Part shown: positions 1 through 41,685 of the stretch, piece after piece
Position numbering within the stretch: the first letter of the stretch is position 1
Layout: each line of letters opens with the position of its first letter
Source: a virus
IMG/VR virus record: IMGVR_UViG_3300025131_000096
Coordinates: 1 to 42,379 of that record
Reading direction: 5' to 3' (one strand)
Length of the DNA stretch: 42,379 nucleotides
Made by a program: the position numbers and the translations under genes
Notes under the pieces: generated by a model
The model's database searches: none
Seen by the model: only the letters and a program-made list of their open reading frames with translations
What the model was told of the DNA's origin: nothing

Positions 1-108
1 TACAGAATCATTGTAACCAGAAGCACTCCAGGCTACGACGTTACCTATCTCATCACGGGCGGCGGAAAGCTCGGGGACGTACTTCGGAATACCTGGGTTT
101 GTGGGCAT
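1..108 (-). CDS. Partial structural-protein gene (N-terminal 36 codons)
   Basis: The gene reads leftward from an ATG at 106-108 and runs off the window start with no stop. Its 36 visible residues match the N-terminus of the 258-residue protein at 40891-41667. Both begin MPT and share the spaced residues P, PEL, AA, IG, AW and GYN, about half of the aligned positions by eye. The gene is therefore a paralogue of that virion-operon gene. A promoter lies directly upstream and no Shine-Dalgarno sequence precedes the ATG. Function is unknown; a virion structural role is inferred only from the paralogue's position ahead of the terminase. Confidence 0.7.
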   Translation of the reverse strand, partial: MPTNPGIPKYVPELSAARDEIGNVVAWSASGYNDSV

Positions 109-118
109 TAGAGTAGCC

Positions 119-147
119 AGTCTATCAAAAGCCCTGAGGGCTGTCAA
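119..147 (-). promoter_or_regulatory. Sigma70-type promoter, near-leaderless
   Basis: On the minus strand TTGACA (142-147) is followed by a 17-base spacer and TAGACT (119-124). The ATG at 108 lies 10 bases beyond the -10 box, so the mRNA should have a leader of only a few bases and no Shine-Dalgarno sequence. Confidence 0.65.
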
Positions 148-185
148 GATACCATTAGAAGAGCGTATATTTTTTTCTGAGAAGC

Positions 186-272
186 GGTGGGGGAGGTTTA
201 TTGGTCTAGGGGTTCCGGTGCGCGCGCGTGGGGGGGCGGCGCGCCTAGTTGATAATGATTTCTCATTCTCAT
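186..272. promoter_or_regulatory. G-rich tract followed by GATAATGA palindrome
   Basis: G runs occur at 189-193, 209-212 and 230-236, followed by an alternating GC stretch and the palindrome GGCGCGCC (238-245). At 251-270 lies GATAATGA-TTTC-TCATTCTC, an inverted repeat with 7 of 8 arm positions paired, resembling a Fur-box half-site arrangement. The same order, G-rich tract then this palindrome, recurs at 41719-41784. This sits in the divergent gap between the minus promoter at 119-147 and the plus promoter near 362-389. Binding factor unknown. Confidence 0.45.
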
Positions 273-301
273 CTTCTCGTGGTCGCGGCCGCCAGATCGC
301 C

Positions 302-338
302 TTCACCCAATCTTCACACAATCTTCACGGAAAGTTCA
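302..338 (+). repeat. TTCAC iteron-like direct repeats
   Basis: TTCAC occurs at 302, 312, 322 and 334, with spacings of 10, 10 and 12 bases. Two middle copies share the longer unit AATCTTCAC. Such helically phased short repeats are typical of binding arrays for an initiator or regulator. They lie just upstream of the plus-strand promoter. Confidence 0.45.
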
Positions 339-361
339 CGGAAGTTTATAGGTATTTTACC

Positions 362-389
362 TTGCTTTGCCCTTGCGCTATGATAGAAT
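362..389 (+). promoter_or_regulatory. Putative main promoter of the plus-strand early operon
   Basis: TTGCTT (362-367), a 16-base spacer and TAGAAT (384-389) form a plausible sigma70-type promoter. An overlapping alternative -10, TATGAT, lies at 379-384. It would start a transcript with a leader of about 360 bases before the first gene at 757. A second, weaker possibility is TTGACG at 608-613 with TATGCT 15 bases downstream. Confidence 0.45.
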
Positions 390-395: not shown

Positions 396-680
396 GTGCG
401 AAGGGAGATTTCCCTTTGCTACGTTCTTTCCCTAAAATCATGCTATCCCTTCTAGCCTTTCCGGCTAGTGTGGGCTGACCTTGAGAGCGTCATTTTGGCT
501 TAGTCTTCTGACCCTAAAATGAGCGTATCCTAGGAAATAGCGGATAGAATCGGATCTTTGAAATCATCGGCAAGAGCGCACCCTAGTTAAGTAACCCTCT
601 AGAAGGGTTGACGCGGGGCATCCCCGGATATGCTAAGGATAGCAATACGCGCGAAATGATAGGTTAAAAAAACCTAGTCC
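396..680 (+). other. Long early leader with successive small hairpins, no gene
   Basis: No credible gene is present. Short inverted repeats include AAGGGA/TCCCTT (401-417), CTAGCC/GGCTAG (452-468), CATTTT/AAAATG (491-521), AACCCT/AGGGTT (593-609), CGGGG/CCCCG (614-626), GCTA/TAGC (632-643) and AGGTT/AACCT (661-675). None is followed by a convincing T-run, so they look like RNA structure rather than intrinsic terminators. They lead into the first two-hairpin leader at 681. Confidence 0.4.
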
Positions 681-756
681 GCTACCCACTAGGAAGGGAA
701 AGGGTAGCATCAATCCCTCAGTTTTAGGACTGAGACAACCCTTGAAATAGAAACCG
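681..756 (+). promoter_or_regulatory. Two-hairpin leader, unit 1
   Basis: Hairpin 1 is GCTACCC (681-687) with GGGTAGC (702-708). Hairpin 2 is CTCAGT-TTTAGG-ACTGAG (717-734). The ATG lies 22 bases after hairpin 2. Unlike most units there is no AGGA Shine-Dalgarno core before the start. Confidence 0.75.
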
Positions 757-1056
757 ATGTACAAGAATCTAGCAAAAAGAATCGCAGAAGATACCGCTAA
801 ACTCATGTCCCTGCACTCTCCTGTAGAGGGCGATGGGCGCAAGGTAGTAAATACTGCCGCTGGGAAGCAAATCATACGCCTGATGGCAACGCTACTGGAT
901 GACCTGGAACACGCCCAAAGGGACGTAGGAGCGGTACTAGCAAGGCAAAGGTCGACATGGGCAGAATTCACCGCAGGGGTCATCCTGGGGACTGAGAAAC
1001 GCGGTCTGGAGGTTGACCTGAGTGAGTGGGACACTGACCTGAACGAAATAGAATAG
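757..1056 (+). CDS. Small helical protein of unknown function (99 aa)
   Basis: First gene of the plus-strand cassette array. The start is the ATG placed just behind two-hairpin leader unit 1. The product appears mostly helical and acidic at the C-terminus, with no cysteine pairs, membrane segment or recognised motif. The antisense reading frame over this region is a shadow: the leaders on both sides point to plus-strand translation. No function is assigned. Confidence 0.75.
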   Translation: MYKNLAKRIAEDTAKLMSLHSPVEGDGRKVVNTAAGKQIIRLMATLLDDLEHAQRDVGAVLARQRSTWAEFTAGVILGTEKRGLEVDLSEWDTDLNEIE

Positions 1057-1062
1057 ACCCTA

Positions 1063-1134
1063 GCAGGGAGGGCATCCCTGCACAATCACCCTAGCAACAC
1101 CGCTAGGATTACCCTTAGAAAAGAGAAACCTAAA
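1063..1134 (+). promoter_or_regulatory. Two-hairpin leader, unit 2 (variant second hairpin)
   Basis: Hairpin 1 is GCAGGGA/TCCCTGC (1063-1081). Hairpin 2 has a completely different sequence from most units, CCTAGC-AACACC-GCTAGG (1090-1107), but the same 6-6-6 shape. The start codon follows after exactly 27 bases. Confidence 0.8.
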
Positions 1135-1374
1135 ATGAAACAAAGCGAAACACGCTCACTCTACTTGATCGCCTCTGAAATTAGGCGGGACTGGCAGAAG
1201 GTTAACTACGCGGCGAAACCGTACCTGGATGCAATGCACTCGCTAAACTCAATAGAGGATCAGTATATGTACGACACGGGGAAATCCGTTGTACGGTACT
1301 TCCTGTCTAATGCTAGTACATGGCGCGGAACGAAAGCCCGTGAAATCAAAGCAGAATTGAGGGCTATGTTGTAG
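1135..1374 (+). CDS. Small phage protein of unknown function (79 aa)
   Basis: The start is fixed by the leader spacing (27 bases after hairpin 2). The protein is probably all helical, with a central YAAKPYLDAM stretch and a later YFLSNASTWRG stretch. From memory it resembles a family of short uncharacterised proteins found in many phage and mobile-element genomes; this is not a function. No metal, nucleotide-binding or membrane motif is visible. Confidence 0.8.
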   Translation: MKQSETRSLYLIASEIRRDWQKVNYAAKPYLDAMHSLNSIEDQYMYDTGKSVVRYFLSNASTWRGTKAREIKAELRAML

Positions 1375-1388
1375 CCTGAGAAACCCTA

Positions 1389-1462
1389 GCAGGGAGGGTA
1401 AACCCTGCACAATCAACCTAGCAAATCCTGCTAGGATCACCCTTAGAAAAGAGAAACCTAAA
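1389..1462 (+). promoter_or_regulatory. Two-hairpin leader, unit 3 (variant second hairpin)
   Basis: Hairpin 1 is GCAGGG/CCCTGC (1389-1408). Hairpin 2 is CCTAGCA-AATCC-TGCTAGG (1417-1435), one base pair longer than unit 2 with a shorter loop. The start codon follows after 27 bases. Confidence 0.8.
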
Positions 1463-2077
1463 ATGAAAGCCACACCGAAACTCTCGGGAACAGGGAAAAT
1501 GTCCTGCCCCTCGTGGAGCTTGCCAGCTTTTGACACTTGCCCTGGGGCAGTCAATAAAGAGGGCGAAGTTTCCGACGCTTGTAAGTCATGCTACGCGAGA
1601 AAAGGAACGTACAGATTTCCCGTTGTCCAAAAGCTACGTGAACATAATCAGGCAGACTGGCATCGTACTGGTTGGGTCGATGAAATGGTCGCAAAGCTGA
1701 AAGGACTGACAAGGTTCCGCTGGTTCGATTCGGGCGATGTCTACTCTGCCGCATTGGCAAAGAAAATCTATCGCGTAATGAGAGCCACGAGTTGCAAGCA
1801 TTGGCTCCCCACAAGGAGCTACAAGTTTGCCAGCATCGCGGCGGAGCTGGATCGCATGGAACTACTGCCTAACGCAACGGTGCGGAAATCTTCGGACAGC
1901 GTAACGGGCGAGTCAATAGAGGGAAATCATACCTCGACGATAGTCCAGAATGCAGAGGATTTCACACCTGGAAAGGGCAAGGTACTGTGCCGCGCTTACA
2001 CGCGCAAAGGCAAATGTGGAAGTTGCACCGCTTGCTGGTCTAAGAAAGTCCATGAGGTGACATACATAAGCCACTAG
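1463..2077 (+). CDS. Gp88-like phage protein with Cys-rich N-terminus (204 aa)
   Basis: The largest gene of the cassette array. The N-terminus has a CPSW...DTCPGAV...CKSCYARKGTYRF pattern, followed by a RWFDSGDVYS segment and a C-terminal CGSCTACW cluster. This arrangement (CPG, CYA, then a W/H-DSGD motif) matches what I recall of the Gp88-type family in actinobacterial and other phages. The chemistry of that family is not established to my knowledge; metal or Fe-S binding by the cysteines is inference. The start follows leader unit 3 at the standard distance, and the gene ends just before leader unit 4. Confidence 0.7.
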   Translation: MKATPKLSGTGKMSCPSWSLPAFDTCPGAVNKEGEVSDACKSCYARKGTYRFPVVQKLREHNQADWHRTGWVDEMVAKLKGLTRFRWFDSGDVYSAALAKKIYRVMRATSCKHWLPTRSYKFASIAAELDRMELLPNATVRKSSDSVTGESIEGNHTSTIVQNAEDFTPGKGKVLCRAYTRKGKCGSCTACWSKKVHEVTYISH

Positions 2078-2086
2078 AAAACCCTC

Positions 2087-2157
2087 GCGGGGAGGGAATC
2101 CCCGCACAATCCCTCAGTTTTAGGACTGAGAAAACCCTTAGAATAGGAAACCTAAAG
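2087..2157 (+). promoter_or_regulatory. Two-hairpin leader, unit 4
   Basis: Hairpin 1 is GCGGGGA/TCCCCGC (2087-2105). Hairpin 2 is CTCAGT-TTTAGG-ACTGAG (2113-2130). A 27-base stretch with AATAGGAAACCTAAAG leads to the ATG; AGGA is the Shine-Dalgarno core. Confidence 0.85.
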
Positions 2158-2409
2158 ATGACATCCAACATCGAAATTGAATACGCCGAACAGGTCATCA
2201 TCGACTGCGCTCAGGATTTACAGGAAGAATGCGGCTTCCCAAACACAAAGGACTCAAAATTCTGGCGGCATCTGCGTGGATACAGCAATTGGTCTGATGC
2301 AAGAAACACCATCAAAAGATGGGCGAGAATTGTGGAACTCGTTGAGAAGGGCTTTGATCTAGCGAATAAGAAACGCGAAGAAGAAGAAGATCGCGGTCAA
2401 ACTTACTAA
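2158..2409 (+). CDS. Small unknown protein (83 aa)
   Basis: Start set by leader unit 4, with AGGA nine bases upstream. Helical, with aromatic residues in a FWRHLRGYSNW segment and a highly charged Lys/Glu-rich C-terminus. No motif recognised. A 61-residue overlapping frame inside it is a shadow without its own ribosome site. Confidence 0.75.
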   Translation: MTSNIEIEYAEQVIIDCAQDLQEECGFPNTKDSKFWRHLRGYSNWSDARNTIKRWARIVELVEKGFDLANKKREEEEDRGQTY

Positions 2410-2416
2410 CACCCTA

Positions 2417-2487
2417 GCGGGGAGGGAATCCCCGCACAATCCCTCAGTTTTAGGACTGAGAAAACCCTTAGAATAGGAAACCTAAAG
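2417..2487 (+). promoter_or_regulatory. Two-hairpin leader, unit 5
   Basis: Hairpin 1 at 2417-2435 and hairpin 2 at 2443-2460 are almost base-for-base copies of unit 4, including the 27-base link to the start codon. Confidence 0.85.
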
Positions 2488-2784
2488 ATGAAAAGCTACG
2501 ACTGCCCAGCATACCTGTCTCTGCGAAACTTTTTCGACGCGGCACTCTCGGTACAGTCTCCTCTGCGAGTACGCAACGGCGCAGGTGAGATACAGACGTG
2601 CGAAACACCTCAACAGATTTGGGATGCTGTAGAGTGTGCCGAAGAGGGGTATGTATACGTTCGGCGGGGAGACGAAAAAGCTACCTTCTGGATCATCCCA
2701 GAAAATGGTAGCGATGCGCTCACCGATTACAGCGACAACGAATTTGCCGAGGAAATCCTAACCCTCGCTAAGAGCCACGACTAA
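2488..2784 (+). CDS. Small acidic unknown protein (98 aa)
   Basis: Start set by leader unit 5. Mixed alpha/beta character: a helical N-terminus, a central YVYVRRGDEKATFWIIPE strand pair and an acidic C-terminus. Two isolated cysteines do not form a metal site. Function unknown. Confidence 0.75.
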   Translation: MKSYDCPAYLSLRNFFDAALSVQSPLRVRNGAGEIQTCETPQQIWDAVECAEEGYVYVRRGDEKATFWIIPENGSDALTDYSDNEFAEEILTLAKSHD

Positions 2785-2793
2785 CACGCCCCT

Positions 2794-2865
2794 GCGGGAG
2801 GGCAAATCCCGCACCAATCCCTCAGTTTTCGGACTGAGACAACCCTTAGAATAGGAAACCTACAG
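2794..2865 (+). promoter_or_regulatory. Two-hairpin leader, unit 6
   Basis: Hairpin 1 is GCGGGA/TCCCGC (2794-2812), one pair shorter than unit 5. Hairpin 2 (2821-2838) has loop TTTCGG instead of TTTAGG with the stem unchanged. 27 bases to the ATG. Confidence 0.85.
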
Positions 2866-3198
2866 ATGAAAACAGAATTGATTCTTCCTAAACTCATCGC
2901 CATTGGCGGCAACGAGTGGAACGCGGGAAATCACCGCCGCGTCTACTTTAACAACTTGCCAAAGTGGTACGGTCTGGAAATCTCACGCTACGGGACTGGT
3001 AACATTTCATACGCCAAACTGAACGGCGAGAAAATCAGTAACGGCAAGGCTCGCAAACTGATAGCCATAATCGACAGCGGCAAGCTTTTCTACGACGTAA
3101 ACAACGGCTCTTGGATGGCAGAGGGCTACGCCTTTACTAGCGAATACTTCCTACCCATCATCGAGAACATCGGGCGCAAGGCTGGACTGGGCGAGTGA
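2866..3198 (+). CDS. Small basic unknown protein (110 aa)
   Basis: Start set by leader unit 6. The protein is basic, with an early NEWNAGNHRRVYFNNL segment and a later NGKARKLIAIIDSGKLFYDV segment suggesting a small alpha/beta fold. It resembles, from memory, uncharacterised phage proteins of similar size. No function assigned. Confidence 0.75.
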   Translation: MKTELILPKLIAIGGNEWNAGNHRRVYFNNLPKWYGLEISRYGTGNISYAKLNGEKISNGKARKLIAIIDSGKLFYDVNNGSWMAEGYAFTSEYFLPIIENIGRKAGLGE

Positions 3199-3210
3199 AC
3201 ACAAACCCTA

Positions 3211-3284
3211 GCGGGGAGGGAAATCCCCGCACCAATCCCTCAGTTTTAGGACTGAGATTACCCTTAGAAAAGAGAAACCTAGAA
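3211..3284 (+). promoter_or_regulatory. Two-hairpin leader, unit 7
   Basis: Hairpin 1 is 3211-3230 and hairpin 2 is 3239-3256. The start codon follows 28 bases after hairpin 2. The leader decides the start of the next gene, because the open frame extends upstream through it. Confidence 0.85.
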
Positions 3285-3515
3285 ATGATAATGATGACGC
3301 ACAAACATTTCGTTGACTTAGCTGACGTTGTTGCAGAAATGGACAAATACGGCTTAACAGGAGTTCAACTTGAAGAACTTACACAGGCTATCGGCTTCGT
3401 CTGCATTAAGCATAACTCCAGCTTTGACTACACAAGATTCGAGGACTGCGTTCTCGATAAACTCGGTAGGTCTGAGTTCTACCCAATGGGCGGAGGCAAG
3501 GACAAAAAATGGTAA
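3285..3515 (+). CDS. Small unknown protein (76 aa)
   Basis: The frame is open from 3195, but the upstream part lies inside the hairpin leader, so the true start is the ATG at 3285, giving MIMMTHKHFVDLAD. Further ATGs at 3291 and 3294 are alternatives. The product is acidic and helical with two separated cysteines and a hydrophobic IGFVCIKHN segment. No function recognised. Confidence 0.75.
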   Translation: MIMMTHKHFVDLADVVAEMDKYGLTGVQLEELTQAIGFVCIKHNSSFDYTRFEDCVLDKLGRSEFYPMGGGKDKKW

Positions 3516-3535
3516 AGCGATAGAACAGAACCCTA

Positions 3536-3609
3536 GCGGGGAAGGGAAATCCCCGCACCAATCCCTCAGTTTTAGGACTGAGATTACCCTTAGAATAGGA
3601 GACCTAAAG
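3536..3609 (+). promoter_or_regulatory. Two-hairpin leader, unit 8
   Basis: Hairpin 1 is GCGGGGA/TCCCCGC (3536-3556), with an extra A in the loop. Hairpin 2 is 3565-3582. 27 bases to the start codon. Confidence 0.85.
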
Positions 3610-3981
3610 ATGACAGCGAAAAAAGAAACCGAGAGTTGCTCACCCCCATTCGGGTGTAAGTACGGTAACGACGATGCTCACCTAGTACTGGTGGACTGTG
3701 GCACTTGCCGCTACGTCTTCGCGCACACCTGCCCCGCTGACGAATTGACCTGCCCAAATTGTGGCTTTCATTCGGACGTATGCGACTTCCCCGACACCAA
3801 TTCATGGCAAAGGGGGGATCGAGAAGCATACGAGAAGCTTAACCCTAAAGCGTGTCTTTCATGCCTGGTTGTGGTAGAGGGCAAAGTTTACCAGGAAATT
3901 CCATGCCGGAGTCATTACCCCAACTTTGACCACTACTGCCACGACAAGGCAAAAGGTTGCCAACTGAAAGGAACGGAGTAA
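3610..3981 (+). CDS. Cysteine-rich, probably zinc-binding small protein (123 aa)
   Basis: The open frame begins at 3370, but the upstream part overlaps the previous gene and the leader; the ATG at 3610 has the standard leader spacing. The protein carries many cysteines, including CGTC, CPNC with a nearby CDF, CLSC and a C-terminal cluster containing C, H and C. The CxxC pairs suggest a zinc-ribbon or rubredoxin-like fold. Whether it binds nucleic acid or protein cannot be told. Confidence 0.75.
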   Translation: MTAKKETESCSPPFGCKYGNDDAHLVLVDCGTCRYVFAHTCPADELTCPNCGFHSDVCDFPDTNSWQRGDREAYEKLNPKACLSCLVVVEGKVYQEIPCRSHYPNFDHYCHDKAKGCQLKGTE

Positions 3982-3989
3982 ACACCCTA

Positions 3990-4062
3990 GCGGGGAGGGA
4001 AATCCCCGCACCAATCCCTCAGTTTTAGGACTGAGATTACCCTTAGAATAGGAGACCTAAAG
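3990..4062 (+). promoter_or_regulatory. Two-hairpin leader, unit 9
   Basis: Hairpin 1 is 3990-4009 and hairpin 2 is 4018-4035. The 27-base link matches unit 8 (GGAGACC instead of GGAAACC). Confidence 0.85.
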
Positions 4063-4341
4063 ATGAAGAAGAAGTTAGCACGGTACAGAATACATTGGGA
4101 AGAAACGCTCGTCTTCGATAGGGTTGTAGAAGCCTCTGATGAAGCTGAAGCGCGTACAATCGCTTTAGAGGAAGTGTATGGTTTAGGTGCTGAAAATGTA
4201 GTGCATGTCGAGCGCGGCTTCCGAGACGCGGTAGATGACGATACTGTTTTCAACGAAGCCACACACGCCGTACTAAGCGATTTCGAGGTCACGAAGATAA
4301 TATACCCGCCAGGAACTGTGATTGGAAGAGTTTCATACTGA
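4063..4341 (+). CDS. Small acidic unknown protein (92 aa)
   Basis: Start set by leader unit 9. A short basic N-terminus is followed by an acidic body with SDEAEARTIALEEV helical sequence, the common pattern of small phage proteins carrying an E-A-rich helix between strands. No catalytic motif visible. Confidence 0.75.
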   Translation: MKKKLARYRIHWEETLVFDRVVEASDEAEARTIALEEVYGLGAENVVHVERGFRDAVDDDTVFNEATHAVLSDFEVTKIIYPPGTVIGRVSY

Positions 4342-4357
4342 TGGAGTAGACACCCCT

Positions 4358-4431
4358 GCGGGAGGGTAAACCAAATCCCGCACCAATCCCTCAGCTTTAG
4401 GGCTGAGAAAACCCTGAAAGAAAAAGGAACC
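4358..4431 (+). promoter_or_regulatory. Two-hairpin leader, unit 10 (compensated stem pair)
   Basis: Hairpin 1 is GCGGGA/TCCCGC with a 12-base loop (4358-4381). Hairpin 2 is CTCAGC-TTTAGG-GCTGAG (4390-4407). The closing pair has changed from T-A to C-G on both arms, a compensatory change. The start codon follows after 24 bases, with AAGGA only three bases before it. Confidence 0.85.
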
Positions 4432-4527
4432 ATGAAAAAAAGAAACCACTACACCGACGCGGTAGATATAATTTGGGCGGCACTTGGTGCAATCCTACTC
4501 GCCGCGATTTGGATCGCAACCCCCTAA
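4432..4527 (+). CDS. Tiny single-pass membrane protein (31 aa)
   Basis: A short ORF in the standard position behind leader unit 10. It has a positively charged N-terminus (MKKRNHY) and one hydrophobic segment over about residues 13-29 (IIWAALGAILLAAIWIA). The layout predicts a single-span inner-membrane protein with the N-terminus inside. The leader strongly supports translation despite its size. Confidence 0.65.
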   Translation: MKKRNHYTDAVDIIWAALGAILLAAIWIATP

Positions 4528-4539
4528 CCCTGAACAGAA

Positions 4540-4641
4540 ATGCGTAACCCACGAAACCCCATTCGGGTGAGCTGGTCTGGACTAGCCGTCCTGCTCGCCT
4601 TAATCACCTACCTCGCTTGGCAATTCCCGCCGAACGGATAG
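4540..4641 (+). CDS. Second tiny single-pass membrane protein (33 aa)
   Basis: ATG 12 bases after the previous stop, with no leader unit of its own and only a weak ribosome site (CAGAAATG), so it is probably translated by coupling. Arginine-rich N-terminus, then a hydrophobic segment (WSGLAVLLALITYLAW), then a polar tail. Its architecture matches the preceding 31-residue protein; the two may act together. Confidence 0.5.
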   Translation: MRNPRNPIRVSWSGLAVLLALITYLAWQFPPNG

Positions 4642-4651
4642 CCCTGCTAGT

Positions 4652-4792
4652 CAAGCGGGGACTGGCTTGTTGAGAGTGTTTGCTCGGCAAGTCATGTTTC
4701 TGTTTCTAAAGGGTCACCTGAGTATGTGTCTAAACTGCTCACCAATCCCTCAGTTTTAGGACTGAGAAAACCCTGAGAATAGGAAACCTACA
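4652..4792 (+). promoter_or_regulatory. Two-hairpin leader, unit 11 (diverged upstream part)
   Basis: Hairpin 1 of the usual type is missing; instead CAAGC/GCTTG (4652-4669) occurs, followed by about 80 bases without clear structure. Hairpin 2 is the standard CTCAGT-TTTAGG-ACTGAG (4749-4766), 26 bases before the ATG. Confidence 0.65.
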
Positions 4793-5023
4793 ATGAGTAA
4801 AGCAAAAGAACTACAACCTTGGAAGTCCGAGTTTTTCCATGTAGACATGAAGCTACGCGGCATCGTCCTCCACAACGTGATCTACGCGCTAAACAGATTG
4901 ATACATCAACTCAACCCTGATCGACTGCCCGTCGATTCACCTCTGGCGGCGGAGATCAAGGGACTAGAATCGGTAGTCGCTCGGCTTGACAAGATCATCG
5001 AAGGAGAAGGAAACCTACAATGA
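4793..5023 (+). CDS. Small helical unknown protein (76 aa)
   Basis: Start set by leader unit 11. Mostly helical, with a leucine/isoleucine heptad-like C-terminal half (IKGLESVVARLDKIIEGEG) that could be a short coiled coil. The stop overlaps the next start (ATGA), indicating translational coupling. Confidence 0.75.
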   Translation: MSKAKELQPWKSEFFHVDMKLRGIVLHNVIYALNRLIHQLNPDRLPVDSPLAAEIKGLESVVARLDKIIEGEGNLQ

Positions 5024-5265
5024 GAAACCAGACACTTGAAAAGTTGGGACTCCGCCAGCCGCGAACAATTGCGGAACTGCGTGTTCACCCACTAACTGCT
5101 GAACTGTACCCTCTACCTCGCGGAGTACTTCGTAGCTGGAAGTCGGGTGAGACATGGTGCTTGGTGGTGGTGAAGGGGTATCATCTGAGCAATCAGCTTC
5201 GCACTAGCTATAGTGATGCGCGGGGTGTGCTTGACGCCTTCGCTGGCATCGGTGAACATGAGTAA
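5020..5265 (+). CDS. Small unknown protein (81 aa)
   Basis: Begins at ATGA overlapping the previous stop. It is preceded by GGAAACCTACA, the same ribosome-site sequence as the leader units but without their hairpins. Basic, mixed alpha/beta, with a WKSGETWCLVVVKGYH strand segment. No function recognised. Confidence 0.75.
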   Translation: MRNQTLEKLGLRQPRTIAELRVHPLTAELYPLPRGVLRSWKSGETWCLVVVKGYHLSNQLRTSYSDARGVLDAFAGIGEHE

Positions 5266-5280
5266 CAAACCAATGCCCAC

Positions 5281-5368
5281 GCGGGAGGGCAAACCAAATC
5301 CCGCACCAATCACCCAGCCTAACACAGGCTGGAATGGACTTAGAAAACCCTAAACACAGGAACGAAAA
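5281..5368 (+). promoter_or_regulatory. Two-hairpin leader, unit 12 (variant second hairpin)
   Basis: Hairpin 1 is GCGGGA/TCCCGC (5281-5304), nearly identical to unit 10. Hairpin 2 is CCAGCCT-AACAC-AGGCTGG (5314-5332), a third independent sequence keeping the same hairpin. The ATG follows after 36 bases with ACAGGAAC as ribosome site. Last unit of the array. Confidence 0.8.
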
Positions 5369-5608
5369 ATGGTACTGGAAGTAACCGAATCAGCGAGACA
5401 GTTTGTGAACATGCCACGGGCGCATCGATCATCCATACTCGCCACACTCTGGAGATTTGAGCATCGCTTTGACCAGCTTTGCATCAAGTTTGACATCGAC
5501 GGTGTCGAAATTGACATCTCCGTACCCATCGAGGCGGCAGAAAACCTCGGTAAGAACATCCTCGCGATGTGCGCCCTTGAACTGGTGAAGAAGAAGGAGG
5601 AGGACTGA
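5369..5608 (+). CDS. Small unknown protein (79 aa)
   Basis: Start set by leader unit 12. Basic N-terminal half, then a strand region FDIDGVEIDISVPIEAAE and a Lys/Glu-rich tail. The gene end carries an AGGAGGAGGA ribosome site for the next gene, whose ATG begins on the last base of this gene's stop. Function unknown. Confidence 0.75.
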   Translation: MVLEVTESARQFVNMPRAHRSSILATLWRFEHRFDQLCIKFDIDGVEIDISVPIEAAENLGKNILAMCALELVKKKEED

Positions 5609-6864: not shown

Positions 6865-7052
6865 GTAGCCTACTGCTAATCACCCTTGCAACAGCGGTGT
6901 TCGCCGCGTACCTACTGGTAATCAACCTCTACTGGGCGGCAGAGAAGAAATGGATCTGGAAGCTGGGGGATTTCCTCATCTGGCTGACCGCAACCCTGAT
7001 GCTACTCGCCATCCTCACAGAAATAATTGTTCACTCGTCGGAGACAGCCTGA
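6861..7052 (+). CDS. Two-span small membrane protein, holin-like layout (63 aa)
   Basis: ATGA overlap with the previous gene. Two hydrophobic segments, about residues 3-26 and 36-58, are joined by a short charged loop (WAAEKKWIWK), with a polar tail. This hairpin topology is shared by class II holins and many other small phage membrane proteins. It lies in the early region rather than beside lysis genes, so a holin call is only a possibility. Its 3' end overlaps the convergent minus-strand gene by 22 bases. Confidence 0.7.
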   Translation: MSSLLLITLATAVFAAYLLVINLYWAAEKKWIWKLGDFLIWLTATLMLLAILTEIIVHSSETA

Positions 7053-7315
7053 TCTCGACTGACAAGAAACATCGGAGTACCCTTGCCCATGTATGCCCCA
7101 AGGACGTTGAATTCAAAGAACTCAAGCGCTTCGTCGAAGTCCATCCCATCACGCTCCATAAGAATCTTGACGCACTTGTCAGAGTCGTATACTGCCAGGG
7201 GAGGAGCATTGAACTGGGCGGCATATCCAATGTATGCTTCCGAAAACCCATCCGCAACGAGTGCTTCAGGGTTCAACTCAGCAAGTTCATCCATATTCTC
7301 TTTTGTGGACATCAT
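7031..7315 (-). CDS. Acidic phage protein of unknown function (94 aa)
   Basis: Last gene of the three-gene minus operon. The ATG at 7315 sits directly after the previous stop; a second ATG follows at 7312. Acidic, with an MERDGMDFDEALEFFEFNVLG segment of a type I recall from several uncharacterised phage proteins. No catalytic motif. The long plus-strand frame opposite is a shadow. Confidence 0.7.
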   Translation of the reverse strand: MMSTKENMDELAELNPEALVADGFSEAYIGYAAQFNAPPLAVYDSDKCVKILMERDGMDFDEALEFFEFNVLGAYMGKGTPMFLVSRDQAVSDE

Positions 7316-7627
7316 TCACTCATCGAAGACAGCCTGATAAGCCTCGCTAAACGCGACACCCCAGTATGCAGAATGGGCATGGGTTTGCCCAATCCACGCA
7401 CGGCAATGCGCCCACTCGTGACAGAGGGTTTCGATTTCCTGATCAACGGAAACGCCCTTCGCAATACGAATGAGAAAGCGCGACGGGTTCTCCTTGAATT
7501 CGCAGGAGCCCCAAGCGTCAACCAACTTCCCTGTCCGCACGATCCGGCACGGATGCGCCAGCGGGACTAAGGCACGAAGGACAACCTCTGCCTGTTTCAG
7601 CGTCTCGCAATTAACGGGGCGGCGCAT
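7316..7627 (-). CDS. SprT-like zinc metalloprotease (103 aa)
   Basis: Contains the zinc-protease signature HEWAH (H70, E71, H74) in the helix LCHEWAHCRAWIG, followed by THAHSAYWG, where H83 or H85 may be the third ligand. This spacing fits SprT/Wss1-type and related small phage metallopeptidases. The ATG at 7627 has GAGGGG five bases upstream. It lies in an operon with a possible regulator upstream (17-base overlap). The substrate is unknown; DNA-bound proteins or a repressor are possibilities inferred from the family and context. Confidence 0.75.
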   Translation of the reverse strand: MRRPVNCETLKQAEVVLRALVPLAHPCRIVRTGKLVDAWGSCEFKENPSRFLIRIAKGVSVDQEIETLCHEWAHCRAWIGQTHAHSAYWGVAFSEAYQAVFDE

Positions 7628-8063
7628 GCTGACCCCTCGGCAAACGAACCATCGCCGCTACGTTTTCCCATCCTGTTGGATCAGAGGGCAGAATACCTGT
7701 CCGAATGAACCGCCGAACAGGGCGAAGAGGTACGTCCAACCGCTCCGAAACGTGCTGGGCATTTCGACAAACCTCCCGCCGCCCATCACCATACACTACC
7801 AGGATATCGAAGTGCCGCCTCCTCCCTGGAGTGGGCGAACGCTGGGTAGCCGAGCGGCGGATCCGCTTCACGCCCTCCCAAAACCTGTGCGCCCGATGCC
7901 CATCAGGAACCTGACCTCGACGGGCGGCATTTCGGAGCGCAGATAGCGACGGGCGTTCACCCCTAGGCAACGAAATGTAAAGCTCGGTGACCGAAGGATG
8001 CGAATGTGTATCGCCATCTACATAGTCGATGACCACTCGCATTTTCCGACTCAAATTTGCCAC
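7611..8063 (-). CDS. Possible DNA-binding protein with duplicated module (150 aa)
   Basis: The frame starts at GTG 8063, seven bases behind a -10 box; an internal ATG (residue 8) is an alternative. The very arginine-rich protein appears to contain two copies of one module. Each has a strand pair with YVDGD or YGDG, a helical stretch, then an R-rich helix ending in RRGQVPDG or RTGILPSD (roughly residues 8-60 and 84-138). The second parts look like simple helix-turn-helix units. Its position as first gene off a divergent promoter region suggests an autoregulator, which is inference. Confidence 0.65.
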   Translation of the reverse strand: MANLSRKMRVVIDYVDGDTHSHPSVTELYISLPRGERPSLSALRNAARRGQVPDGHRAHRFWEGVKRIRRSATQRSPTPGRRRHFDILVVYGDGRREVCRNAQHVSERLDVPLRPVRRFIRTGILPSDPTGWENVAAMVRLPRGQHAPPR

Positions 8064-8070
8064 AACCTAG

Positions 8071-8099
8071 ATCCTACCAGAAGCCAAAAGAGAGTGCAA
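8071..8099 (-). promoter_or_regulatory. Sigma70-type promoter, leaderless
   Basis: Minus strand: TTGCAC (8094-8099), 17-base spacer, TAGGAT (8071-8076), then seven bases to the GTG at 8063. The predicted transcription start coincides with the start codon. Confidence 0.65.
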
Positions 8100-8413: not shown

Positions 8414-8442
8414 TTGACTCGCCAAATGTATTTCACTAACAT
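8414..8442 (+). promoter_or_regulatory. Sigma70-type promoter, leaderless
   Basis: TTGACT (8414-8419), 17-base spacer, TAACAT (8437-8442), then six bases to the ATG at 8449. No Shine-Dalgarno sequence is present. Confidence 0.65.
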
Positions 8443-8448
8443 GAGTGC

Positions 8449-11702: not shown

Positions 11703-11723
11703 CCCCGAAGAAATGGTTATAGT
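11696..11723 (+). promoter_or_regulatory. Putative sigma70-type promoter, leaderless
   Basis: TTGGTA (11696-11701), 16-base spacer, TATAGT (11718-11723), then seven bases to the ATG at 11731. It resembles the other near-leaderless promoters but with a weaker -35. Confidence 0.5.
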
Positions 11724-11730
11724 GAGTAGC

Positions 11731-13914: not shown

Positions 13915-13947
13915 TTGACATCCCCCCTGTGTGTAGTACAATACTAC
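13915..13947 (+). promoter_or_regulatory. Strong promoter with palindrome over the -10 box
   Basis: TTGACA (13915-13920), 16-base spacer, TACAAT (13937-13942): 11 of 12 consensus positions. The -10 box is embedded in the perfect inverted repeat GTAGTA-CAA-TACTAC (13933-13947), a likely operator. Unlike the leaderless set, this transcript has a leader of about 20 bases. Confidence 0.75.
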
Positions 13948-35519: not shown

Positions 35520-37355
35520 TTAGGGCTCAAAGACAGTAACAGTGTCAGGGTGAAGGGGCAGCACAATGCGGCTGGGGTAGGTTTCACCGTGGTACAAGGT
35601 TACGGTGTTGTTGTCGAAACAGGGGTGGCAGCGCACAGGATTGTCTCCATTAACCTGAGGAACATCAAAGCGGGTGTAGTTGGCGAACTGCACACGTAAA
35701 AGGTTAGTGCTGCCGCCTCCAGGTAGGTGCATGGCCTTGAGACTAAACTCCAGACACACCTTGCGAATGTCCCCCGCGACATAACTTTCAGGGAAGGCAT
35801 ACCATGTATCTGCCACATCAATCCAGTTTGATCCGGTGTCAGCCGAGTACTGGATTTTCGCGTAGACCTGAGCCCCAGCCTGAGACGCACTAAGCCAGAA
35901 ATGCCCTTGAGCGACACCTAGGTACGTGGACTCTTTTAACGGGGAAGTGGATGCTGTTATAACCTTCTGGAAGTCGTTGGTATCGTAGGTTATACGGGAG
36001 CTATAGTACGAATCTATGTTCGTAGAACTTACACCACCCGCTATTGCGGTACTTACGTCCTCGGGAGTAGTGGCGGTTCCCCATGTGTTGGTGATGGTAG
36101 TAGTCCAGTCCGACCCAGAAGGTTCTGCGGCAACTAGTGCTGTTTCGCCAATCCAAAGCTGCGTGGGTATCGAGGTAACCGCTGTGGCATCCTCATCCCC
36201 AAACCGCCGAAGCCAGTGCATCTTCTCGGCTGTAACTCGCACCCAGGAGTAGGAGGTATCCGTATAGGGAGGTGGATCCTCGTCCGCGTAGTCGGTGGCG
36301 TTGTTAGGGGTAATAAGCATCTCAACCTTAGGACAGGCTGTGGGAGAACTATTACCAAAATTCGTTGCTAGGACATCCTCATTCTTGAGGTAGTATCGGA
36401 AAAAGTGCAACTGCTTGGCTCTCATCCGGATCTCCTCCCCATCCACCTCTGTAGACGCATGACCGCCTGACGCACCGAACACACCAAAAGCGTTTTCCCT
36501 GTGGGAGAGTAGGTCAATAAGCGCGTTGGGCGGAGCCCAGTGATCGTCGCAGTCCAGGATAGCTAGTATAGGGAAGTCTCTAGGAAGACGCTCTCCTAAC
36601 TCGTCAACATTGGGGTAGCGGTTTAGTAGGGTATCTCTGTTATCTGAGGATACGGTGCGCCCTGTAACAACCGATTTAAGTTGGTAGGCATCTCCAGTGT
36701 CCAGGGTATCTTGTAAAAGTTGCAGGTTGGTGGCAAGGTGTGTCTTAATGGCTGTCTGATCCTTATAGCCGTCCCAGATGTACCCGCAAAACGTCGGTGT
36801 TCTCTCCCCTATAAGGTCTCGGGCAGGAGCGGTGATGGCGTCTTGGCGGCGCGGGAGGAAAGCCCTGGGGGAAATCGCTGAAATCTTAGGCATGGGCATC
36901 CCGCCGATAAGTGTACGATCTTCCCCTAGACCACTCATAAGCCATGTAAGAGCACCCCCTGCACTGGTTCCCGACAGCCCAATCTTACTAAACTCAATGT
37001 ACGAGGAGTAGTTCGCGTTGACGTAGTGCATAAGCTCTACAATGTCCTTCATATCCCGCCGACAGTACAGACCCCATCCGTACTCAGAGTTAGTATAACC
37101 ATTGTCCCCGATCCAGTCATCCCCATCTGAACCACCCCCATCTCCGTGTCCTCTGTGGTCTAATGTGACACAAGTAAACCCATTATCACGGGCGGCTTGT
37201 GCCGAGTCCGCAGCACTGGAGCGGTTGCCCCCTGCCCCGTGGAAGAAAAACAATAAAGGTACTTGACCAGAGGCGTCATCGTAATAAATATTGTACTCCA
37301 TTACATACCCATCGGACATGGTAATGGTTTGAGCTTCGCTATTTACTGTAGCCAT
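35520..37355 (-). CDS. Alpha/beta hydrolase with C-terminal beta domain, CocE/NonD-like (611 aa)
   Basis: N-terminal alpha/beta hydrolase: oxyanion HGAGGN (39-44), nucleophile elbow GTSAGG with Ser131, acid candidate among D268/D270/D271 in LAILDCDDHW, and His299 in GASGGHAST, in the canonical order. The last ~250 residues are strand-rich (YLGVAQGHFWLSAS, AQVYAKIQYS), like the jelly-roll of CocE/X-Pro dipeptidyl-peptidase relatives. These families cleave esters or prolyl peptides. The gene sits between portal and the capsid block, so the enzyme is probably a virion component or made late. It lacks a signal peptide. Hydrolases of this kind are not normal parts of this operon. Confidence 0.8.
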   Translation of the reverse strand: MATVNSEAQTITMSDGYVMEYNIYYDDASGQVPLLFFFHGAGGNRSSAADSAQAARDNGFTCVTLDHRGHGDGGGSDGDDWIGDNGYTNSEYGWGLYCRRDMKDIVELMHYVNANYSSYIEFSKIGLSGTSAGGALTWLMSGLGEDRTLIGGMPMPKISAISPRAFLPRRQDAITAPARDLIGERTPTFCGYIWDGYKDQTAIKTHLATNLQLLQDTLDTGDAYQLKSVVTGRTVSSDNRDTLLNRYPNVDELGERLPRDFPILAILDCDDHWAPPNALIDLLSHRENAFGVFGASGGHASTEVDGEEIRMRAKQLHFFRYYLKNEDVLATNFGNSSPTACPKVEMLITPNNATDYADEDPPPYTDTSYSWVRVTAEKMHWLRRFGDEDATAVTSIPTQLWIGETALVAAEPSGSDWTTTITNTWGTATTPEDVSTAIAGGVSSTNIDSYYSSRITYDTNDFQKVITASTSPLKESTYLGVAQGHFWLSASQAGAQVYAKIQYSADTGSNWIDVADTWYAFPESYVAGDIRKVCLEFSLKAMHLPGGGSTNLLRVQFANYTRFDVPQVNGDNPVRCHPCFDNNTVTLYHGETYPSRIVLPLHPDTVTVFEP

Positions 37356-37356: not shown

Positions 37357-39147
37357 TTAAACTATGGGGATGTCTTCTGTGCCGAGGAATGGTGTACTCT
37401 GTGCTCCCTGCGTTTGGATGCCACCTGCGGGGGCCAATAAAGCGTTCTTCTGTGCAACTTGTTGGTGCTGTACGATAGCAGCGGAAATAGCTAGTATTAG
37501 TTCTGTGTTAGACTGCGGCGTCTCAGCTAGCTTCTGTGAATAATACGCGATAAACTGATCAGGCGGATCTTGTTCTAGAACAGAGATTGCCGCCGTCTTA
37601 CCTGAGATGTAGTCAAATAACCGATCCTGAGGGCCACCCGATGCCAAACTTAATTCAAGGTATTGTGCGATGTCCCGTGCACCTGTGGCCCAGAGGAGTC
37701 GGCGTAGTGACTCTACGATAACTGGAGGCGCACCATTTGGAAACTGGGCTAATGTATTTGTAACAAGAGAAGTGGCTGCGGCATAAGTTTCTCGCTGGCC
37801 TTGTTGCGATAAATTCCCTAGTTCAACTGCATCTACCCTGAAAGACATGAGTGCGCTTTCGGGATCAGGTATGTCGTATATCTTCGACAGACCTGAAGGA
37901 AGCGGGATCTCTAGTGCCTCACCCCACATCTCCCGCTGATAAGAAAATGTAACGTGAGCAGCCGAAGCAAAAAGCTCCGCCATAACAGAAAGTCGATCCT
38001 TAGTTCTGCGGTTACCCGCGTTAGATAATATCGAAGCCTCGGCAGCAGATTTTCTTGGGCCTATCTGCATACCTCTGTCTAGAGCGTTAGATCCAATTAC
38101 ATCATCTAGTAATCGTATGTATTGTTCCAGAGCCGCGAAAAGTTCAGCAAGCGCAGAGTTTCTCTCGACAGGCCGCATCTTGTGCGATACACCCGTATCG
38201 GCTGTATCCGCTAATCCTGTTTTAACAGGTACGTATATCGTATCGCCTGTCTGATTGTCTCGTACTTCTTTGATGTAATCTTCTGTAAGAGCTTCTTCAT
38301 CGTAAAGTATTACATTGTTAATGCTTCCAACTTCCTTAGTGATAGCGTGTAAAGTATCGTGGATGTCATTTATGAGAGGGATCCAAGACAATACTTCAGA
38401 AGGACTGATGTCTTCCCCTGGCGCAGGGTCAAGGAACGAGCGGATAATTAAAGGACACGCGCCTGATAACTTAACGCGAGATACGGGCATTCCGATGCCA
38501 GTATTCGACTTACCTTTATCCGAGCCGAGCTCGTAGGTAACCTTCGTACATTTGTTGTGCGCCGTAGGCCAGAAAACTTCGGTCTGGATTACCTTGTCCG
38601 TGGGATCCTCAGGATTGGCAATCGAAAAGGTTCGCCAGAAACAACGCCTTAGTCCTGGCTCGTAACCACACTCAACATGGCTAAGAGCTTTGTACTTAAA
38701 CCGCTCGTGAGGCGGGGCGGATTTGTCTGTGTCTACGTAGAGCCCGACATGCGTCCCCATCGGCCCATAGAGCGCACACTTCCGTGCAGCCTCCTTGAGT
38801 CCCCCGTGCCGCCCAGCCCAAAGCATCAATGTGTTCTGGTCTTCGGTAGCTCGGGCCGCTTCCCCTGAAAGAGCCTCAACCTGAAAGACAGGTAGGGCTG
38901 GAGAAGCCTCGATTGCCGCTTGGCGGAGGCGTGTCTGGAATAGGTTTGCACCTACGTCCGGATACAGCCAAGGAATAGAAACTGATTCAGGATTAAAATA
39001 TACGGCTGTAACCGTATGATCCCGCCCCGCATAGAGCGCATTTACACGCTCCGTGACGTACTGAGCCGCAGAGTCGAGCTTTTTCTTAGATTCTGTAACG
39101 ATCTGCTGGATCGCAGCATCGTCCGGAGCAGGATAGTAGCGAGTCAC
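37357..39147 (-). CDS. Portal protein (596 aa)
   Basis: Length and layout fit podovirus portals: an N-terminal helical region, a middle with the LIRSF...WIPLINDIHDTLHAITKEVGSINNVI stretch, a QIGPRKSAAEASILSNAGNRRTKDRLSVMAE helix and a Gln-rich C-terminus. Located one gene after the terminase. It begins with GTG at 39147, only nine bases behind a -10 box and with no properly spaced Shine-Dalgarno sequence. Confidence 0.8.
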   Translation of the reverse strand: MTRYYPAPDDAAIQQIVTESKKKLDSAAQYVTERVNALYAGRDHTVTAVYFNPESVSIPWLYPDVGANLFQTRLRQAAIEASPALPVFQVEALSGEAARATEDQNTLMLWAGRHGGLKEAARKCALYGPMGTHVGLYVDTDKSAPPHERFKYKALSHVECGYEPGLRRCFWRTFSIANPEDPTDKVIQTEVFWPTAHNKCTKVTYELGSDKGKSNTGIGMPVSRVKLSGACPLIIRSFLDPAPGEDISPSEVLSWIPLINDIHDTLHAITKEVGSINNVILYDEEALTEDYIKEVRDNQTGDTIYVPVKTGLADTADTGVSHKMRPVERNSALAELFAALEQYIRLLDDVIGSNALDRGMQIGPRKSAAEASILSNAGNRRTKDRLSVMAELFASAAHVTFSYQREMWGEALEIPLPSGLSKIYDIPDPESALMSFRVDAVELGNLSQQGQRETYAAATSLVTNTLAQFPNGAPPVIVESLRRLLWATGARDIAQYLELSLASGGPQDRLFDYISGKTAAISVLEQDPPDQFIAYYSQKLAETPQSNTELILAISAAIVQHQQVAQKNALLAPAGGIQTQGAQSTPFLGTEDIPIV

Positions 39148-39156
39148 CTTGGGACA

Positions 39157-39185
39157 AGTGTATCCAATTGTTTTAGTTTTGTCAA
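39157..39185 (-). promoter_or_regulatory. Near-leaderless promoter inside the virion operon
   Basis: Minus strand: TTGACA (39180-39185), 17-base spacer, TACACT (39157-39162), then nine bases to the GTG at 39147. It lies in the only sizeable gap of the operon (41 bases between terminase and portal) and could raise expression of head genes over terminase. Confidence 0.7.
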
Positions 39186-39188
39186 GCC

Positions 39189-40886
39189 CTAACGCCGCCT
39201 TTTGTGCCTCATAGGAGGAGGTTTCCAGTAGGGTGAGTCAGGGCCAGGAGACGCGACTTTTTCAGCCTCGATCCCTGGAACCGCGCCTCGCTTCATAATA
39301 AAGTTAGTGAGAAGCGCGAATGCATCTGGAAGATCGTCCGATTCCGACTTAGGGAATTCCGAAAGTCTCTTGAGCAGGATGTCTCGCCCAGGGAATTTAC
39401 CTGGGAAGAAGATACGATTCTCTGCCATCCCTACTTGAATACCCTGTAGTCGCTGTTGCTTCTTAGCCCGACTTTTTAAATTGATCGGAACAAAACGAAC
39501 TTTCCTAGCCCAATGCTGTTGGTGCGCCCAGGCACGTAGGGCATCACAAGACATTGTGTTCTCAACCCACAGAGCAGCAATATCCTCAGAGTTCTCGTAG
39601 ATAAGATCAGCCACGTACTCCATACACTCTGCAATCTGCCCTCGGATTTCTCGTGCTTGGACTGGAAAAAAGATGTTCGTGTCGGGGGGCATGTCGGCAA
39701 TGCCTGGGATCTCTAGTCCTGGAATACCTATACAACGCTCTGCGGTTGTGACATGTACGAGGATGATACCGTTCCAATCCCCAATCTTGGCATCCGCACG
39801 AGAAGTTGGATCCCAAAGAATAATCTTCCGGCCCTTAGGTAGATTCTCTGGAAGAATATCAAAGAGCGTAGACTCTCTAAGACGTTTGTCCGGAAAGAGT
39901 GCATACGCCGCCGCGACAGGTTGCACGAGGTACTGCTGGCTCCAGAACTCTGGATCATCAATGCGATCCTCCGCAGCAAGTAATTCTAAGTCGGACATGA
40001 AGTCCGGACAGAGTGCGTATGCGCCGTTCGGCCCCCGCCCCTTCTTATCCGCAATACCCGTATTCGGATTCACGCCATCCCAACAACCAAACCGATATTG
40101 TGACCACTCTTCGCTGTGCTCCCCAATCCAGGCCGAGAGATCGTAGAAAGCCCAAGGAGTTCCGATGTGTCGGATGTTACCTGACGGATCTCGGAGGATC
40201 GGCTCAAGCTGCTTAAAGGACTGAATGACTTTCTCGCGCTGGACTGGGGTTGTCGAGTTGCGTTCATTCGACGGGTCATCGACATAGATATCTGTCGGGT
40301 GCTTACCCGCTTTGTTTGAGCCAATCGAACTAGGGAAGAAGCAAGGCTCCCGCCCCATCCCCTGTCTACCTACCGTATTAAAGGATCCTGGCGGAGAACC
40401 TGGAGAAGCGCGGCACGGAACAAGCTGGGGAAACGCCGCCGAGAACGGAACAAGTACAGGGGGTTCCTTGCCCTGGGCCGGAATGATCTCAACCATGTTC
40501 TCGGCATTGCACATGTTCCGCATCTCACCTAAGATCTCGTTCGCAAGTTGCGTAGCCGCCGACACATACATCGTTCGCTTCTCTGGGTCACGCCATTTCT
40601 CCCAGAGCGCGATATCCATCAGCAAGGTTGTCTTGCCGTGGTTCCGCGATACAATCGTACTCGTCCTGTTGGTACTGAGGGCGTTCGCTGTTATTTCTCG
40701 ATGCAACCTAGAGAACTGCTTCCGCCTAACGGGGGGAGAACCAGGTTGGGCTGTCAGGATTCCCCGATGACCTATAGCATGCCCAAACGCTACAGGATCT
40801 TCAAGAAGTCTTAGGATAGCATCAAAAAGCTCAGAAGACTTCTCGATGTCGCGCTCAGAAAGTATTCGCCAAGGAGAAGGAGTCAC
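39189..40886 (-). CDS. terL: Terminase large subunit (565 aa)
   Basis: ATPase: Walker A-like VSRNHGKTT (79-87) and Walker B DIYVDDP (D203, D204). Nuclease: IILWDPTS (D358), LWVENTMS near residue 437 and DLPDAFALL near the C-terminus, the three acidic sites of the RNase H-like packaging nuclease. It cuts and pumps concatemeric DNA into the prohead through the portal encoded next. GTG start four bases after the previous stop, without a clear ribosome site. No small-terminase gene is recognised nearby. Confidence 0.92.
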   Translation of the reverse strand: MTPSPWRILSERDIEKSSELFDAILRLLEDPVAFGHAIGHRGILTAQPGSPPVRRKQFSRLHREITANALSTNRTSTIVSRNHGKTTLLMDIALWEKWRDPEKRTMYVSAATQLANEILGEMRNMCNAENMVEIIPAQGKEPPVLVPFSAAFPQLVPCRASPGSPPGSFNTVGRQGMGREPCFFPSSIGSNKAGKHPTDIYVDDPSNERNSTTPVQREKVIQSFKQLEPILRDPSGNIRHIGTPWAFYDLSAWIGEHSEEWSQYRFGCWDGVNPNTGIADKKGRGPNGAYALCPDFMSDLELLAAEDRIDDPEFWSQQYLVQPVAAAYALFPDKRLRESTLFDILPENLPKGRKIILWDPTSRADAKIGDWNGIILVHVTTAERCIGIPGLEIPGIADMPPDTNIFFPVQAREIRGQIAECMEYVADLIYENSEDIAALWVENTMSCDALRAWAHQQHWARKVRFVPINLKSRAKKQQRLQGIQVGMAENRIFFPGKFPGRDILLKRLSEFPKSESDDLPDAFALLTNFIMKRGAVPGIEAEKVASPGPDSPYWKPPPMRHKRRR

Positions 40887-40890
40887 AAGG

Positions 40891-41667
40891 CTAGTCTGTA
40901 ACTAGGTAGCCCTGGAGAGAGACAGCTAGCCCGTTTCCTGCCGAGTCACCCACACCCGTTACCCAAATGTCGGTCTTAGCTGGAAACGCCGTAGCCCCGT
41001 TTAGATTGAGCGTCTGGGCTGACGGATTTGAGGTAGTAAAAATATGCATCACTCTGGCCGCGCTGACTGGGGCTGTGCTGTCATCCGCATCCAGGCGTTG
41101 GTAGATCTTGACAACATACTCTCGCCCCGTCTGATCTGCAAAAGCCTCTGCCCTCGACAAATAAAGGGTCTTACCTGCCGGAACAGTATAAATCGCCATG
41201 TGAGTCTGACCGTAACCAGCACCCATAACAGCTACCACATCTCCGCCAGAGGTTTCAATGGTCATGTTGGCCTCGTTAGCATTGCCGTAGGCTCCCGTAT
41301 CGGTCACATAGACCCGATGCACCCGAATGAACTGAGTGGTCGTTAAACTGCTGGCACTCGCGCCGTTGGTAACTACCTCTGCGCTGGTCTCTGCGAAATT
41401 TTGATCCAGCCCCTCGATGACAATTTTTCGCGCGTGAGTGCCGCCCGTCGCATCCTTAGCGTCTCCACCCGCCTTGATCCGTAGAGACGATGCACTGGTG
41501 AGATGTCCTGCGTAGGTGCTGCCGCCGCCTTCCCAGATAAATTCTGCCGATGTGCCTACAGCCGTATTGTAACCAAATTTATCCCAAGCAGTGATCTTGC
41601 CAATCTTGCCTTGGGCGGCAGTTAGCTCAGGGATGTTTACAGGAGTTCCGGCTGGATGGGTTGGCAT
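40891..41667 (-). CDS. Virion structural protein, paralogue of the gene at 1-108 (258 aa)
   Basis: Strand-rich throughout, with Ala/Gly/Thr/Ser-rich composition and segments such as RKIVIEGLDQNFAETSAEVVTNG and KTLYLSRAEAFADQTG. From memory this resembles an uncharacterised structural family common in aquatic short-tailed phages. First gene of the minus-strand virion operon. The N-terminal ~37 residues align with the partial gene at 1-108. A head-fibre or decoration role is possible but unproven. Confidence 0.7.
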   Translation of the reverse strand: MPTHPAGTPVNIPELTAAQGKIGKITAWDKFGYNTAVGTSAEFIWEGGGSTYAGHLTSASSLRIKAGGDAKDATGGTHARKIVIEGLDQNFAETSAEVVTNGASASSLTTTQFIRVHRVYVTDTGAYGNANEANMTIETSGGDVVAVMGAGYGQTHMAIYTVPAGKTLYLSRAEAFADQTGREYVVKIYQRLDADDSTAPVSAARVMHIFTTSNPSAQTLNLNGATAFPAKTDIWVTGVGDSAGNGLAVSLQGYLVTD

Positions 41668-41676
41668 GGCATGGGC

Positions 41677-41685
41677 AGTATATCA
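41677..41685 (-). promoter_or_regulatory. Extended -10 promoter of the virion operon
   Basis: TGATATACT on the minus strand (41677-41685), nine bases before the ATG at 41667. The -35 region is poor, as allowed for extended -10 promoters. Near-leaderless like the others. Confidence 0.55.

Follow-up and report, generated by a model that had tools for sequence, protein, structure and literature searches.

Does a phage begin the messages of its operons at the start codon itself, leaving no leader in which a Shine-Dalgarno (SD) site could lie? The question is raised by the IMG/VR virus contig IMGVR_UViG_3300025131_000096, a linear stretch of 42,379 bases (49% GC) that was analysed over its whole length and is called the window hereafter. 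It had been predicted that seven of its genes start 6-10 nt behind a sigma70-like -10 box without an SD site, and that leaderless initiation is a genome-wide habit of this phage for the first genes of operons. After scoring the window for promoters and following the arrangement through related viral contigs, we consider it quite probable that several operon-first genes give leaderless transcripts (leaders of 0-4 nt) and that the host translates such messages well. Leaderless initiation at these genes is well supported because of the position of the promoters, the enrichment in the phage family over permuted motifs, and the conserved architecture. It is not, however, a genome-wide rule: the gene behind the promoter at 13942 and about 12 early genes, the latter with repeated leaders, are leadered.

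Promoters and start codons in the window

All seven predicted arrangements are present, with gaps of 6-10 nt between the -10 box and the start codon, and in six of them a -35 box is spaced at 16-17 nt, the site at 41667 being without one:

17811-17846, minus strand: -35 box TTGACA (17841-17846), 17 nt, -10 box TATACT (17818-17823), 6 nt, ATG
108-147, minus strand: -35 box TTGACA (142-147), 17 nt, -10 box TAGACT (119-124), 10 nt, ATG
39147-39185, minus strand: -35 box TTGACA (39180-39185), 17 nt, -10 box TACACT (39157-39162), 9 nt, GTG
8414-8451, plus strand: -35 box TTGACT (8414-8419), 17 nt, -10 box TAACAT (8437-8442), 6 nt, ATG at 8449
41667-41685, minus strand: extended -10 box TGATATACT (41677-41685), 9 nt, ATG; no properly spaced -35 box
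8063-8099, minus strand: TTGCAC, 17 nt, TAGGAT, 7 nt, GTG; a weak leaderless candidate
11696-11733, plus strand: TTGGTA, 16 nt, TATAGT, 7 nt, ATG at 11731; a weak leaderless candidate

Every position on both strands was scored, blind to genes, with the sigma70 matrix of Escherichia coli. The leading promoters were those at 17818, 119, 13942 and 39157, one spurious site, and then 8442; four of these top six lie at leaderless distance from a start codon (6 nt for 17818, 10 nt for 119, 9 nt for 39157, and 6 nt for 8442). When all 2,217 ATG and GTG codons of the window were ranked by the sigma70 promoter found 5-11 nt upstream, the codons at 17811, 108, 39147 and 8449 took ranks 1, 2, 3 and 5. Because of these ranks, the four sites are beyond chance on their own; for four of the top five to be drawn from approximately 60 gene starts (the gene number is approximate), P is ~2e-6. 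The simplest objection is that AT-rich words resembling a -10 box were picked by eye near start codons in a genome of 49% GC. It draws on the codons at 11731, 41667 and 8063, which rank 21, 22 and 32, at chance level and among spurious open reading frames (ORFs); for the set of seven as a whole, however, it was already refuted. The site at 41667 can be rescued despite its score, because its extended -10 box and its gap are conserved in a relative, as described below; those at 11731 and 8063 are indistinguishable from chance. As judged from motif position and conservation, the leaderless arrangement is real at four sites, likely at 41667, and unproven at 11731 and 8063.

The absence of an SD site, predicted for all seven starts, is clear at 108, 8449, 17811 and 39147, where anti-SD pairing energies are -1.5 to -3.1 kcal/mol. 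At 41667 there is an SD-like stretch, GGTAGGTGAT, which sits too far upstream, and at 8063 the status is ambiguous, since an AGGA lies within the -10 box. Genes inside operons had been said to carry SD sites, and the median energy of the other genes (-4.3 kcal/mol, vs -2.9 kcal/mol at random positions) bears this out only in part: several structural genes, including those at 37355, 40886 and 31351, have none.

The strongest promoter of the window serves the 64-codon ORF at 17811-17617, the first gene before the metallophosphoesterase gene. The GTG at 39147 opens the gene of a structural-module protein of 596 aa, which comes immediately after the large terminase gene; the ATG at 8449 opens an ORF of 83 aa that precedes the Prim-Pol primase gene, and the ATG at 41667 opens the gene of a 258-aa protein (PHROG 8198), the first gene before the terminase. 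The gene starting at 108 runs past the contig end, and its message is a candidate for a leaderless or very short-leadered one. Related N-termini are encoded at both ends of the contig, MPTNPG..VPELSAA (108-1, minus strand) and MPTHPAG..IPELTAA (41667-40891, minus strand), and these may belong to paralogous fibre-like genes (PHROG 8198; relatives of cyanophage tail fibres). Three tiled ORFs, 8063-7611, 7627-7316 and 7315-7031, occupy 7031-8063 on the minus strand and resemble a small operon that runs against the early region.

If the promoters were real and the genes started at later, SD-bearing codons, the transcripts would be leadered after all. Such a layout is seen at the strong promoter at 13942, and an in-frame ATG lies approximately 18-21 nt into the 8063 gene. 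At three of the sites the proteins themselves argue for the starts as called: the start codons at 108 and 41667 are supported because the encoded N-termini parallel each other, matching one another and those of relatives from residue 1, and the relatives of the 39147 protein align from approximately residue 8-12 onward, near the N-terminus, which is consistent with the GTG start. We therefore regard later starts as an unlikely explanation. At 11731, an in-frame ATG lies 18 nt upstream, at 11713. A homologue search found no homologue for the product of either the 8063 or the 11731 gene.

The arrangement in related viral contigs

A terminase profile search gave 74 related viral contigs, more than a dozen long ones of which were examined. 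At 16 of 74 strong promoters (41 non-redundant loci), the ATG or GTG of an ORF of at least 60 codons lies 5-12 nt downstream; for the 41 loci, 30 column-permuted motifs give 0-9 such cases. Among the called genes of 16 contigs, 14 starts fall at 5-12 nt, whereas 100 controls with permuted motifs averaged 1.2 and never exceeded 4. The family counts thus exceed all 100 controls, and the pattern is clearer in relatives of 61-65% GC, so that chance pairing of AT-rich words with start codons becomes very improbable.

The terminase tree splits the phage family into three clades. Counting ORFs of at least 30 codons with a start codon 5-11 nt past a strong promoter (chance rate, 9.9%), we found 8 cases among 30 in the clade of the window, 17 among 31 in the second clade, and 3 among 23 in the third, which is near chance; the first two clades together (25/61) differ from the third with P = 0.019. 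As far as promoter positions can tell, the leaderless habit is lineage-wide in two of the three clades. The second clade supplies textbook cases, such as TTGACA-17-TATAAT-GCCAAC-ATG in relative G011 and TTGACA-16-TATACT-GCCCAAC-ATG, opening a 659-aa ORF, in relative G017.

The layout is also kept at individual loci. The region upstream of 41667 is identical in three relatives (L027-L029), and in a fourth (L024; 51% protein identity to the 41667 gene) TGATACACT + 9 nt + ATG is kept while the 9 nt themselves differ, the changes removing an out-of-frame ATG that is present in the 9 nt of the window. In the window, G011 and G019, the metallophosphoesterase comes after a small ORF whose leaderless gap is 6 nt, and the terminase starts 10-11 nt past a -10 box in G003 and G005. 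The promoter at 39147 is absent in the relatives, in which the corresponding gene follows or overlaps the terminase without a promoter of its own. A strong TTGACA-16-TACAAT promoter after polA is common to the window, G003 and G005. The homologous proteins encoded behind it (NIKALIEAEVEA / NIKQLIEDEVVA) start 9 nt past the promoter in G005 and approximately 90 nt past it in G003; in the window, the leader behind this promoter is approximately 20 nt long. The G003/G005 pair is a natural experiment on a gene moving between leadered and leaderless translation. The polA match of G005 (L015; G005:C1:34650-36452, minus strand) has one in-frame TGA, either inside the gene or before its start.

The same scan was applied to the top 12 promoters of each of several known phages. 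Leaderless-distance starts numbered 3 of 12 in Giles and 1 of 12 in D3, and 0 of 12 in each of lambda, HK97, P22, phiC31 and Arthrobacter phage Warda. The single case in D3 is the cI gene, which is what would be expected if such sites were operators, or promoters of self-regulating repressors as in lambda cI/PRM, and reflected no general habit. The genes downstream of the sites in the window are, however, structural genes or members of the primase and metallophosphoesterase operons, in which no repressor domain was found, and this explanation is hardly credible here.

Leadered genes, mechanism and host

Two classes of genes in the window have leaders:

13915-13972, plus strand: TTGACA-16-TACAAT promoter after polA, with ATG 13970 behind a leader of approximately 20 nt containing GGTGA
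676-5371, plus strand: approximately 12 copies of an early-gene repeat of approximately 80 nt, each directly upstream of a small early gene

The first, missing from the original prediction, lies 12 nt before a TTG (13955) and 27 nt before the ATG at 13970. The early repeat precedes nearly every small early gene and consists of two hairpins (GCGGGG..CCCCGC and CTCAGT..ACTGAG) followed by AATAGGA(A/G)ACCTAAAG-ATG, with compensatory changes in 7 of the 13 predicted pairs of the hairpins; the other viral contigs searched contain no exact copy. These early small genes are, by their sequence features, a leadered class with structured, SD-bearing leaders. We tentatively suggest that two regimes coexist in one phage family, one giving leaderless starts to replication and structural genes that come first in their operons, the other placing early small genes behind a dozen structured leaders that are nearly identical, with clades differing sharply in their leaderless use and orthologues switching between the leaderless and the leadered state behind the same promoter. 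If this is true, the way in which leaderless initiation evolved could be traced directly in such a family.

The small early genes form the left arm of the window. Elsewhere, the plus strand carries a replication module (Prim-Pol primase, UvrD-like helicase and family A polymerase) and the minus strand a structural module that includes the large terminase; the window also encodes the metallophosphoesterase and a RuvC-like resolvase. A similarity search of the first 24 kb gave no near match in the phage collection, and a tRNA search found none in the window or its relatives. A 611-aa structural-module protein (35520-37355, minus strand) has an N-terminal alpha/beta-hydrolase domain (esterase/lipase-like), and a domain of this type occurs again among 51 proteins scanned from G011 and G003.

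From the arrangement of the motifs we infer the true transcription starts, the mode of translation and the host. A sigma70/SigA-type RNA polymerase, presumably that of the host, would transcribe the phage, starting at, or approximately 4 nt or less from, the AUG or GUG of several operon-first genes. An mRNA that opens with its start codon would be translated without an SD site, presumably by 70S ribosomes binding the 5'-terminal start codon, and the downstream genes of the operon would be reached through SD sites or translational coupling. The habit may be ancestral or recurrent in the phage lineage, and may reflect efficient translation of leaderless RTG messages by the host, which would most probably be an actinobacterium.

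Several points weigh against this reading. Three of the seven sites score no better than chance, and the third strongest promoter of the window, that at 13942, has a leader with a weak SD site, which counts against a general rule. The actinobacterial phages phiC31 and Warda are without the pattern, and it is therefore not a simple result of the host phylum. If transcription began some nucleotides before the expected +1, the message would keep a short leader, and at 41667 an RNA starting from the A five nt past the -10 box would begin with an out-of-frame AUG. Very short leaders are indeed a possible, though clearly less probable, alternative: transcription would start 2-6 nt before the codon, and near-leaderless messages would be bound by 30S subunits in the ordinary, SD-independent way. 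At 108, 39147 and 41667 the gap is 9-10 nt and the usual +1 falls 2-4 nt before the codon, so that a very short leader is equally likely at these three sites, and 9 nt is the most frequent single gap in the family. Pooled gaps of 6-7 nt, which put the codon on or beside the usual +1, occur more often (7 vs 5), and at 17811 and 8449 the gap is only 6 nt. The sequence cannot separate a strictly leaderless message from one with a leader of 2-4 nt.

Leaderless initiation at several operon-first genes would also be a clue to the host, which should be able to translate leaderless messages opening with ATG or GTG well. The original prediction of a leaderless-tolerant host was in this respect a reasonable inference. 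Weak protein evidence points to the Actinobacteria: 869 of 879 match records of the metallophosphoesterase are phages of Mycobacterium, Rhodococcus, Streptomyces or Gordonia, in a collection rich in such phages. The large terminase (TerL) matches, among phages, only Anabaena phage A-4L, and weakly; the GP88 protein has its nearest relatives in uncultured and proteobacterial phages. A search of 84,980 species genomes with the TerL profile gave only two doubtful contigs from metagenome-assembled genomes (MAGs), one of Gemmatimonadota and one of Flavobacteriales. In the former (L094; chromosome CP070815.1), the terminase relative is flanked by runs of N and has the look of a short phage fragment that scaffolding joined to a bacterial bin; a check of 395 Gemmatimonadota genomes gave no further convincing match, so that this host phylum is not supported. 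In the latter, the terminase relative sits on an 8-kb contig. The promoter consensus of Bacteroidota is unlike TTGACA/TATACT, and this contig is likely mis-binned because its promoters are of the TTGACA/TATACT type. Comparisons of PolA and the primase gave no host information, and no domain specific to a host came up when two relatives were scanned against Pfam and PHROG.

Comparison with known systems

Leaderless (TA-led) genes are commonest in Actinobacteria and Deinococcus-Thermus (PMC3160421). Like the sites in the window, they have TAnnnT approximately 10-12 nt upstream, no SD site, and ATG or GTG as the start codon (PMC3160421; PMC4633059); they differ in being host genes confirmed by transcript maps, whereas the starts in the window are predicted from sequence. 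Reporter work in mycobacteria showed that a 5' ATG or GTG is necessary and sufficient, and that E. coli uses a 5' GTG poorly (PMC4633059). Our candidates match this RTG rule, because all are ATG (five) or GTG (two) and never TTG.

The closest likenesses are found in mycobacteriophages. Three of the four strongest promoters of Giles end 6-7 nt before a start codon, as in the window, the difference being that its host is known; no published statement on leaderless starts of this phage was found in the literature searched. In Cluster O (Corndog, Firecracker and others), several SigA-like promoters, among them PL1 and PR2, were predicted to be leaderless, with +1 at the first base of the start codon (PMC4351075), and our scan of Firecracker recovers starts 7-8 nt past the -10 box for gp11, gp12 and gp25. 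Cluster O shares with the window the presence of several leaderless-distance promoters and differs in its known host, M. smegmatis; no gene relationship between the two turned up, with no systematic test made. Phage transcripts have also been termed 'often leaderless' (PMC5312081). The view that such a habit is unusual in a phage does not survive these examples, and the layout is not new, being already known from actinobacterial phages such as mycobacteriophages. What the window adds is sequence-level evidence that a phage family other than the cultured mycobacteriophages has leaderless initiation as a lineage-wide habit. There is also a consequence for annotation, since such starts would be misplaced by gene finders that look for an SD site.

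The early-gene repeat has a parallel of its own in the Cluster K mycobacteriophages, whose start-associated sequences (SAS; GGGATAGGAGCCC) and ESAS with inverted repeats resemble it in layout and share an ATAGGAG core; their function is unknown (PMC3203893). Finally, the messages of lambda cI from PRM and of cI and cro of phage PY54, the latter mapped by RACE (PMC4488713), begin at the AUG, as proposed for the window; those are single regulatory switch genes, whereas in the window several lytic operons would start in this way.

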